Below are positions 4,962 to 28,895 of a stretch of DNA of 38,815 nucleotides, piece by piece (the stretch's first letter is position 1; every line of letters begins with the position of its first letter). Source of the stretch: Aridibacter famidurans. Its GTDB lineage: Bacteria > Acidobacteriota > Blastocatellia > Pyrinomonadales > Pyrinomonadaceae. The notes below the pieces were generated by a model that was not told the origin of the DNA, did no database searches, and saw only the letters and a program-made list of their open reading frames with translations. Location: contig JAGFIQ010000037.1 in NCBI GenBank assembly GCA_024103495.1, forward strand, positions 1 to 38,815. The letters are read 5' to 3'. The position numbers and the translations under genes were made by a program.

Positions 4962-4986
4962 GGGCGGGGACGAGCCCCGCCCCTAC
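4962..4986 (-). repeat. REP-like hairpin, GTAG + 8-bp stem class
   Basis: On the minus strand: GTAG foot, stem GGGCGGGG, five-base loop CTCGT, stem CCCCGCCC (8 perfect pairs). Copies with the same foot, stem length and loop (CTTGT) lie at 27010, 27687 and 28861. Confidence 0.85.
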
Positions 4987-26644: not shown

Positions 26645-27013
26645 ATGAGTTTGAAAGTAAAGGATCTGCGGGTCTTTGTGCCCGCCAGGGATTTTGAAGA
26701 GAGTCTGAGATTCTACGAGGCGATCGGCTTCAAGAAGAAGTGGCAGCACGAGGACGCTCTCGCCGAACTGCAGATCGGACGGCACAGGATCTGGCTGCAG
26801 AACTACTACGTGAAGGAGTGGGCGGAGAATTTCATGATCTCGATCGAGGTTGACGACACGGCTGAATGGTGGCGGATGATCAACGACCTGATCGTGCGCG
26901 ACAAGTTCGATTCGATTCGCGTTAAGCCTCCGAAAGAGGAGCCCTGGGGCGCTACGATCACGTACTGCTGGGACCCGAGCGGGGTGCTGATCCATTTTAC
27001 GCAGGATACGTAG
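26645..27013 (+). CDS. VOC-family (bleomycin-resistance-like) protein
   Basis: 122 residues: LRVFVPARDFEESLRFYEAIGFKKKW, an EL...IWLQNYYVKEW core, and the closing WGATITYCWDPSGVLIHF, i.e. one VOC domain of the bleomycin-resistance/dioxygenase type. Two bases separate it from the GNAT stop. The TAG stop codon is also part of the GTAG foot of a REP-like hairpin (27010-27034), so the repeat either inserted at the stop or supplied it. Substrate unknown. Confidence 0.85.
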   Translation: MSLKVKDLRVFVPARDFEESLRFYEAIGFKKKWQHEDALAELQIGRHRIWLQNYYVKEWAENFMISIEVDDTAEWWRMINDLIVRDKFDSIRVKPPKEEPWGATITYCWDPSGVLIHFTQDT

Positions 27014-27034
27014 GGGCAGGGCTTGTCCCTGCCC
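27010..27034 (+). repeat. REP-like hairpin, GTAG + 8-bp stem class, overlapping a stop codon
   Basis: GTAG foot (27010-27013), stem GGGCAGGG, loop CTTGT, stem CCCTGCCC, eight perfect pairs. The TAG of the foot is the stop codon of the VOC gene. Confidence 0.88.
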
Positions 27035-27041
27035 TCCAACC

Positions 27042-27093
27042 GTTTAGAGCAGGGCTTCGCCCTGCCTTGGCAGCGCAGAGCGCTGCTCTAAAC
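27042..27093. repeat. GTTTAGAGCAG inverted repeat enclosing two hairpins
   Basis: Eleven-base perfect arms GTTTAGAGCAG (27042-27052) and CTGCTCTAAAC (27083-27093). Inside are AGGGC-TTC-GCCCT (27051-27063) and CAGCGC-AGA-GCGCTG (27071-27085). A degenerate relative follows at about 27112-27162, ending CGCTCTAAAC. Related GTTTAGAGCAG copies lie at 35832 and 35922. Confidence 0.8.
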
Positions 27094-27200
27094 GGGTTCA
27101 TTTTTTCGGTTTTGCGCTGGGCTTCGCGCTGCCTTAGAAGCGCGAAGTGGCGCTCTAAACAGTTGATTGTGCAATACTTATACCCTTGGAGGATATGTTG

Positions 27201-27677
27201 ATGAACCGAGCGTTTTTTCTCTTTGCACTTCTGCTTTCCTTTTCGATCTCCGCTTTCGCACAGGACAAGGCCGAGAAGCCCAAGGTCGCCGACCTTGCCT
27301 GGTTCTCCGGCTGCTGGCAGATGGAGCGCGCGCCCGGAAGGGTCACCTACGAGCAATGGACCTCTCCCGCGGGGATAATGATCGGGATGGGGTATTCGAA
27401 GCGCGACGACAAGATCGTCAGCCACGAATTCCTTAGGATCATCGAGAAGGAGGGCGATGTTTACTACGTCGCGATCCCGTCCGGCCAGAAGGAAACCGCC
27501 TTTAAGCTCACCTCGCACAAGGACGGAGTTGCGATCTTCGAAAATCCCGAGCACGACTTTCCGCAGAAGATCACTTACACTCGCGGCTCGACTGGCATCA
27601 CCGCCCGAGTCGAGGGTATGAGCAACGGCCAGATGCGGGGCTTCGATCTGGTTTTCAAGCCTTCTGAGTGCGGGTAG
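27201..27677 (+). CDS. Exported DUF6265-like protein
   Basis: 158 residues: signal peptide MNRAFFLFALLLSFSISAFA, then LAWFSGCWQMERAPGRVTYEQW and FENPEHDFPQKITYTR, the pattern of the DUF6265 family of small beta-rich secreted proteins of unknown role. I start at 27201 because GGAGGA lies seven bases upstream; the ATG at 27195 is too close to it. The gene is followed after nine bases by a GTAG hairpin. Confidence 0.83.
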   Translation: MNRAFFLFALLLSFSISAFAQDKAEKPKVADLAWFSGCWQMERAPGRVTYEQWTSPAGIMIGMGYSKRDDKIVSHEFLRIIEKEGDVYYVAIPSGQKETAFKLTSHKDGVAIFENPEHDFPQKITYTRGSTGITARVEGMSNGQMRGFDLVFKPSECG

Positions 27678-27686
27678 AGTTGGAAC

Positions 27687-27711
27687 GTAGGGGCAGCCCT
27701 TGTGGCTGCCT
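27687..27711 (+). repeat. REP-like hairpin, GTAG + 8-bp stem class, upstream of the RAYT gene
   Basis: GTAG foot (27687-27690), stem GGGCAGCC, loop CTTGT, stem GGCTGCCT (seven pairs plus a terminal G-T). It faces the RAYT gene and is mirrored by the inverted copy at 28837-28861. Confidence 0.85.
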
Positions 27712-27795
27712 GTGAGCGAAGCGAAAAAATTCTCCTATACCGTTGAAATGTAGGATCACCAAGAAAAATTAGGTCTTAAGGAGCCTCACCCTCCG

Positions 27796-28269
27796 ATGAA
27801 ACACCTCACTTTCACACGAAAGGAGTCGATCCGCCTGCGCGGGTTCGATTACTCCGCCAATAGCATTTACTTCGTCACGATCGTTGTTCGCGATAGAAGA
27901 GTAGTGTTTGAGAACAAACAACTTGCATCGAAAACCGTAGAGTGTTTGCTGGAACTCCGGGAAAAGTACTGCTTTCGACTCTATTGCTATTGCTTAATGC
28001 CGGACCATTTTCACGCGCTTATTTCCCCGGGGGAATCCGGCAAGACGCTTGGGCAAATCTGCGGAGCGTTCAAGAGTTTGTCCACGCGAATCTCCTGGGA
28101 TTGGTATGAAGGGAAACTGTGGCAACGTCAGTACCATGACCACATAGTCAGGAACTCGGAAGACTTCTGCCATTGTGTAGAGTATGTACTGGATAATCCA
28201 GTCGAAGCCGGTCTCGTATTAGAACGTGACCAATGGTCTTATTCGGGTAGGGTTGACTACCTGGAATAA
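27796..28269 (+). mobile_element. REP-associated tyrosine transposase (RAYT, Y1/HUH family), intact gene
   Basis: 157-residue Y1 (HUH) single-strand DNA transposase. The metal-binding HUH is His71-Phe-His73 in LMPDHFHALI, and the nucleophilic tyrosine is most likely Tyr113 in WQRQYHDHIVRN, with the conserved YVLDNPVEAGLV helix after it. Size and motifs match the REP-associated tyrosine transposases, which in other bacteria cut and join REP hairpins at a GTAG or GGAG foot. Four hairpins with exactly such a foot lie in this window, two of them bracketing this gene in opposite orientation. Base composition is lower in GC than its neighbours (about 45% over 27901-27960). AAGGAG lies 12 bases upstream of the ATG. 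The reading frame appears complete. Confidence 0.93.
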
Positions 28270-28310
28270 GTTTCTGACTAGCATTGCTCCAATACGTGTG
28301 TTTCGACATT

Positions 28311-28895
28311 ATGGGTATTTTGACCAGAGTTCTTACTCTAGTCGGTGGTTGGGTTGGCACCGTTCCGATCTTTTCGATTCCCACCATCATCGCCGCTCTC
28401 TTTCTGTCAGTTTCGGTCTTAGGTCAGAGTACTGCTGTCGAAAAATGCAAGGTAGAGGGGAAAACGGGAAAGTACAAGTTGATCTCGGAAGCGTGGTCAG
28501 GGACCGTATCGAAGGATGACCCGACCGATGATGTGCTCATGGTATTTATTCAGCTAGAGCCGGAAAGGTTCAATACTGAAGAGTTGCGGCGTGTCGCGGC
28601 ACGGATAAATCGAGTCTATTGCAAGACTATCAGAGTTCAGGCAGTTTTCTTTGAAGACATAGATTCGTTCTCCAAGTACTTTAGCCCGGACTATCTGTTG
28701 CGCCCTAACGAATGCGTCAGAGGCTTCTATTCTTTCGACAGAGAAGAGCGATCGGCCAAATTGGAGTTCTCCACAAAGCTTGGGAATCCGACGACCGAGA
28801 CACAGATGGATATCGAGATCGCGCCTTTCGGCGCACGGACAGGGACAAGCCCTGTCCCTACAAATCTTTTTTTGCTAGAATTGCGCCGCCCATGA
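28311..28895 (+). CDS. Hypothetical exported protein with REP-derived C-terminus
   Basis: About 194 residues if started at 28311; an alternative in-frame start is 28284. A hydrophobic segment (FSIPTIIAALFLSVSVLG) may be a late signal peptide or anchor. The central part (VEKCKVEGKTGKYKLISEAW, LRRVAARINRVYCKTIRV) matches no family I recognise. The last ~20 residues (RTGTSPVPTNLF...) are encoded by the inverted REP hairpin at 28837-28861 and flanking bases, so the original stop has probably been lost. The stop overlaps the AraC start (ATGA). Lower GC and position inside the RAYT/REP bracket suggest a foreign or decaying gene. Confidence 0.55.
   Translation: MGILTRVLTLVGGWVGTVPIFSIPTIIAALFLSVSVLGQSTAVEKCKVEGKTGKYKLISEAWSGTVSKDDPTDDVLMVFIQLEPERFNTEELRRVAARINRVYCKTIRVQAVFFEDIDSFSKYFSPDYLLRPNECVRGFYSFDREERSAKLEFSTKLGNPTTETQMDIEIAPFGARTGTSPVPTNLFLLELRRP
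28837..28861 (-). repeat. REP-like hairpin, GTAG + 8-bp stem class, inverted, inside a reading frame
   Basis: On the minus strand: GTAG, stem GGACAGGG, loop CTTGT, stem CCCTGTCC, eight perfect pairs. On the plus strand the hairpin is followed by AAATCTTTTTTT, so it could also act as a terminator before the AraC-type gene. Confidence 0.87.

Follow-up and report, generated by a model that had tools for sequence, protein, structure and literature searches.

The window analysed here, a 38,815-nt contig of Aridibacter famidurans (JAGFIQ010000037.1), encodes a REP-associated tyrosine transposase (RAYT) that lies between two facing hairpins with a GTAG foot, and further hairpins of this plan are scattered through the genome. 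We read this arrangement as a REPtron, with a probability of about 0.88, in which the RAYT is predicted to cut the dispersed GTAG hairpins and thereby likely copies or moves them. The hairpins have the features of a GTAG REP family: a GTAG foot, a palindrome and tens of dispersed copies, located mostly behind predicted gene ends. Recognition of the folded single strand is predicted to rely on foot and loop, and the RAYT would cut beside the hairpin with its own tyrosine, the cutting likely being what lets it copy or move hairpins. In this genome the copies settle singly, almost without exception right after a stop codon and with the GTAG end facing the gene, the TAG of the foot serving as the stop where the hairpin is placed at the gene end. 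This RAYT, rather than another, would be the maker of the copies, binding, cutting and transferring them.

Table 1. Features of the window discussed in the text, in window coordinates.
Feature	Position	Strand	Stem pairs	Remarks
GTAG hairpin GGGCGGGG-CTCGT-CCCCGCCC	4962..4986	-	8/8	dispersed copy
Glyoxalase-family gene (PF00903)	26645..27013	+		stop codon is the TAG of the 27010 hairpin foot
GTAG hairpin GGGCAGGG-CTTGT-CCCTGCCC	27010..27034	+	8/8	
Inverted pair of CCGTTTAGAGCAG... / CCGTTTAGAGC repeat	27040-27056, 27079-27095	+, -		107 genome copies, control 0
GTAG hairpin GGGCAGCC-CTTGT-GGCTGCCT	27687..27711	+	7/8	upstream bracket of the RAYT
RAYT / TnpA-REP gene, 157 aa	27796..28269	+		NF047646, PF01797, PDB 4er8
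ORF, 194 aa	28311..28895	+		between RAYT and downstream hairpin; reads through that hairpin
GTAG hairpin GGACAGGG-CTTGT-CCCTGTCC	28837..28861	-	8/8	downstream bracket, faces the 27687 copy

The RAYT gene and the hairpins around it

The encoded protein scores 108.6 bits against NF047646, the NCBI model of REP-associated tyrosine transposases (cut-off 80), which bears out the RAYT identity proposed in the earlier note. It also matches PF01797 (38.8 bits) and E. coli TnpA-REP (PDB 4er8, E 8.4e-10), with the W, Q, H and R residues and the tyrosine motif aligning. The HUH motif is H71-F-H73 and the tyrosine motif Y130-V-L-D-N134-P135; H71, H73, Y130, N134 and P135 are invariant in all 10 aligned rows of RAYT homologues, and we take the tyrosine aligned at Y130 to be the catalytic one. 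In the alignment, W109, Q110, D115, H116 and R119 are the counterparts of the residues with which E. coli TnpA-REP contacts the GTAG, given as W94, Q95, E/D100, H101 and R104 in the available part of PMC6006769. The contact Q is replaced by H in 2 of the 10 homologues, and the RAYT of G005 departs at the contact positions D, H and R, yet this genome has 47 hairpin copies. An IS200/IS605-type element, which would have several near-identical gene copies, was rejected: NF033573 yields only 22 bits against a cut-off of 55, and the RAYT protein matches the genome once at E≤1e-15.

All four GTAG hairpins that had been claimed for the window are present (Table 1); the expectation for perfect hairpins of this kind (GTAG, 8-bp stem, 5-base loop) is 0.005 per window, as judged by 200 first-order Markov shuffles. 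The strict 8-bp stem ascribed to them holds for three, but not for the copy at 27687-27711, in which the outermost pair, G-T, is the one mismatch of the eight. This copy starts 9 nt past the TAG stop of a DUF6265 gene (27186-27677). As described earlier, the RAYT lies between the third and fourth copies, and these face each other. The fourth is located 568 nt beyond the RAYT stop and encodes the final residues of the intervening ORF, which matches nothing in Pfam and has a single distant relative among those found; with this extra ORF, the bracket is looser than in relatives. Bracketing by facing hairpins recurs in 7 of 9 relatives; here the bracket is not a tight one. The dispersed hairpin at 4962-4986 has no gene end on its own strand within 100 nt, and the window contains no match to Rfam RNA families at gathering scores.

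The hairpin at 27010 is an insertion. The orthologues of the glyoxalase-family gene in G002 (89% identical) and G005 (84%), both from the same genus, end one or two residues later, and there is no GTAG hairpin in the 200 nt beyond either of them; the empty site that the earlier note suggested looking for is thus seen behind the same gene in two related genomes. Glyoxalase, DUF6265 and AraC-type genes follow one another in G002 as they do here, with a 23S_rRNA_IVP gene taking the RAYT's place between the DUF6265 and AraC-type genes (L201:2563-3205). The difference in the RAYT between the two genomes may be a gain here or a loss there. The 23S_rRNA_IVP gene of G002 is preceded by a run of GAAGTCA repeats.

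Dispersed copies and their placement behind stop codons

The genome (G000; 4.38 Mb in 188 contigs) contains 32 matches to the pattern GTAGGGN6CTNGTN6CC as compared to none for the reversed control, 35 as compared to 4 for a CTTGT pattern, and 39 as compared to 3 for the reversed control when five of the eight pairs are left free. The genome-wide excess over control sequence on which the earlier proposal hinged is therefore there. The commonest stem is GGGCGGGG, and the stems beside the RAYT differ from it (GGGCAGGG, GGGCAGCC, GGACAGGG). The flanks of the dispersed copies are mostly unrelated, with weak base preferences that were computed without a null. The copies are singletons, with one pair 300 nt apart on contig C52; a reading of them as decayed REPINs, remnants of a two-step process, gained no support, with one inverted pair only among the matches listed. 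Covariation of the stems, also claimed earlier, is real but modest: among 14 distinct copies, four of the eight pairs are changed on both sides, which none of 500 shuffles reaches, and across all loci (38 distinct 25-mers) Watson-Crick pairing holds for 85% of the free pairs, only just exceeding arm shuffles (mean 77%, maximum 84%).

The placement of the copies is strongly one-sided. For 31 of the 39 distinct copies, a gene predicted on the same strand ends -4 to 86 nt ahead of the foot, in seven cases at -4, where the foot itself supplies the stop codon, and none of the 39 lies within 100 nt behind an opposite-strand gene end (p 9e-10, assuming that copies are independent and that either strand is equally probable). 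Gene calls rest on an ad-hoc codon score, applied to loci of ~3 kb with a threshold of 25 (all 31 pass 28); one opposite-strand candidate 3 nt away, at L005, fell below the threshold with a score of 18, and the copy C88:58024 was left out of the strand test. The gene's own stop before the hairpin is TAG in 12 of 24 cases as compared to 29 of 105 other gene ends, a marginal difference (p 0.02). The part of Di Nocera 2013 (PMC3733652) drawn on here reports REPs a short way past gene ends as well as TAG stops provided by GTAG termini, and makes no mention of strand.

This placement would also fit hairpins that selection maintains as elements of host mRNA 3' ends (terminators, stabilisers or brakes on translation), with their adjacency to the RAYT being secondary. 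E. coli REPs no more than 15 nt from a stop codon are reported, in the excerpt of PMC12306157, to stall ribosomes. Transcription terminators can be set aside, as no T-run follows the copies. Furthermore, the hairpins of G027 do not share the bias, with 11 same-strand and 12 opposite-strand gene ends (18 of 44 copies sampled), which argues against mRNA-end elements. We rejected the strand bias as a family-wide trait: besides G027, same- and opposite-strand counts are 9/2 in G005 (29 of 47 matches sampled) and 7/2 in G042 (15 of 35 matches sampled), and the 9/0 of G035 (15 of 49 sampled) is yielded by its paired geometry alone. The CCGTTTAGAGC repeat family of the A. famidurans genome has 13/4 of 45.

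The strand bias may originate in insertion, for example into an exposed coding strand, or in selection on mRNA ends. As a tentative extension of the REPtron reading, which we consider somewhat unlikely in this full form, the exposed coding strand at the ends of transcribed genes would be where the RAYT inserts its hairpins in single-stranded form, the GTAG foot becoming the new stop, and the clade would have switched between plain and bulged hairpins at least twice with foot and loop kept. One-strand placement leaves a countable footprint for weighing entry at the lagging-strand template, entry at the coding strand of active genes and later sorting by selection against one another.

Homologous RAYTs and hairpin shape in the family

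We surveyed 119 genomes of the same family, this one included. RAYT matches at E≤1e-15 are found in 11 of them, A. famidurans again included, the weakest (G061, 36% identity) being without a hairpin. The remaining nine relatives have a close homologue, and in seven the RAYT is enclosed by two GTAG hairpins of this plan that face each other (L064, L066, L067, L068, L070, L071 and L072; L068 and L047 are one locus and were counted once). L069 also has a hairpin on either side, but its upstream copy is turned round, and at L065 only an upstream hairpin was found. The RAYT gene at L071 is interrupted by two stops. The RAYT of G004, a genome of the same genus, matches an entry (P0119) that is named Pyrinomonadaceae, which supports the acidobacterial origin indirectly. 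In G115 the RAYT frame continues into the downstream hairpin (L066:1501-2013), which therefore encodes its last residues. Of six more distant RAYTs, five (L048, L049, L050, L052 and L053) are near GTAG hairpins with other stems; at the sixth, L051, no GTAG hairpin of that kind was found beside the gene. Inverted pairs, like REPINs, are the main form of these hairpins in G035 and G042, spaced by about 111-117 nt in the former and mostly by 48-53 nt in the latter.

The bracketing hairpins come in two shapes: those in G004, G006 and G032 carry one extra base in the 5' arm, and those in G000, G005, G035 and G010 are plain. The shape of the dispersed hairpins follows that of the hairpins bracketing the RAYT. 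A bulge-specific pattern has 31, 8 and 4 copies in G004, G006 and G032 (controls 3, 1 and 0; three of the four in G032 sit at the RAYT) as compared to 0, 1, 1 and 1 in G000, G005, G035 and G010 (controls 5, 7, 7 and 1), and plain copies number 1, 0 and 0 in the first group and 39, 47, 49 and 14 in the second. The G004 copies show compensated changes at the inner pairs (GG/CC to CC/GG) and a constant foot and loop. The tree of homologues needs two changes of the bulge label, of which well-supported branches force only one. Both this co-segregation of the bulge with the RAYT and the bracketing of homologues in 7 of 9 relatives speak against host mRNA-end elements with a merely adjacent RAYT, and we regard that explanation as improbable. 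Spread by the RAYT and retention as an RNA element can, however, hold together.

Returning to the REPtron, equal abundance of its hairpins in genomes without the enzyme, which the earlier note would have taken as refuting it, is on average not seen. Of the 10 genomes that have a close homologue, 6 contain at least 10 hairpins, as compared to 5 of 109 without (Fisher p 2.4e-5, kinship ignored), and at least 4 plain hairpins in 7 of 10 as compared to 10 of 109 (Fisher p 3e-5, kinship ignored). The rule is not strict, as five genomes without a close homologue are hairpin-rich: G026 (55), G027 (44), G042 (35), G038 (34, control 6) and G033 (14). All five are drafts with listed completeness of 74-94%, so that loss of the homologue and an assembly gap are indistinguishable in them. 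A profile search with the homologues (E≤1e-8) gave nothing in G026, G027, G038 and G020 and detected divergent relatives in G002, G033 and G042; those divergent RAYT loci that were scanned have no adjacent GTAG hairpin of the window's plan. The link between RAYT and hairpin is therefore statistical, and copies can outlast the enzyme or be foreign to it.

Other Y1 transposases and known REPtrons

As stated earlier, the window has no second RAYT; genome-wide there are 16 Y1_Tnp matches (L031-L046). As read by motif against the table in the available part of PMC6006769, seven are subclass 1.2-like (Y---Q--HH), four class 3-like and five class 2-like. Inverted repeats are found on both sides of 13 of the 16 genes (E≤0.01), a test for which the hairpin pair of the window's RAYT is too short and too far apart. 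Six of the seven subclass 1.2-like genes are among these 13, each with its own inverted repeats; for subclass 1.2, the table (Quentin 2018, PMC6006769, in the part available) lists no REPs. One of the subclass 1.2-like genes, L033 (G000:C67:34554-35863), has three repeats per side in opposite orientation, and a genome search for a 20-mer of this repeat, tolerating one mismatch, gives 18 occurrences (control 0). The repeat at 27040-27095, the CCGTTTAGAGC inverted pair that adjoins a hairpin of the other family (27010), also brackets a Y1 gene on contig C109 (L038), which is likely its partner.

That another of these transposases moves the GTAG hairpins, with the window's RAYT a bystander, we consider highly improbable: the number of Y1 genes, the lone GTAG hairpins 0.5 kb from the L043 gene and 0.2 kb from that of L035, and a dominant stem unlike those beside the RAYT would fit such a scenario, but non-GTAG inverted repeats surround 13 of the other 15 Y1 genes, three GTAG copies within 2 kb are found at the window's gene only among the 16, and its homologues are bracketed in 7 of 9 relatives.

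The REPtron interpretation accords with known systems, for which the RAYT and REP literature was drawn on in excerpt (including PMC2817692 and PMC3686654). Like the REPtrons of Nunvar 2010 and Di Nocera 2013, as excerpted, the locus combines a HUH-Y1 protein with a Y---NP motif, inverted GTAG hairpins around its gene, dispersed extragenic copies, and hairpin termini that provide TAG stop codons. It differs from the REPtrons of Di Nocera 2013 in its host lineage, the Acidobacteria, which in the available part of that paper (PMC3733652) have tyrosine transposases with long inverted repeats on either side and are absent from the list of GTAG phyla. Among the matches listed in our search for RAYTs in Acidobacteria, Pyrinomonadaceae or Blastocatellia, no literature beyond PMC3733652 and PMC6006769, both in excerpt, came up; within those matches this is a GTAG-type REPtron in a lineage without an earlier example, and the REPtron kind itself is known.

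By the motif table of Quentin 2018 in the part available, the protein resembles TnpA-Y1 subclass 2.5 (Bertels group 3) in DH[LF]H, WQ and a D at the E100 position, in its length near 150 aa and in short perfect-stem REPs, and departs from it in the tyrosine motif (YVLDNP as compared to YI[VI]ANP). The accessible part of PMC6006769 describes subclass 2.5 mostly from xanthomonads and pseudomonads. With E. coli TnpA-REP (subclass 2.2, group 2) it shares the GTAG guide and the sequence match to 4er8. The bulged stems in G004, G006 and G032 recall E. coli REPs, in which, according to the excerpt of PMC8266576, the bulge is a two-base mismatch required for activity; here it consists of one added base, and no copy in the window is bulged.

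Two oddities set this example apart from the REPtrons of Nunvar 2010 and Di Nocera 2013, as far as the excerpts go: copies that in A. famidurans are singletons with a strict strand bias, and homologues that switch between plain and bulged stems. How TnpA-REP picks its own hairpin and whether it needs the bulge has been studied in few gammaproteobacterial systems (PMC8266576, in excerpt). The enzymes described here, 48-60% identical to the window's and with hairpins differing by one bulged base, form a natural recognition swap set.
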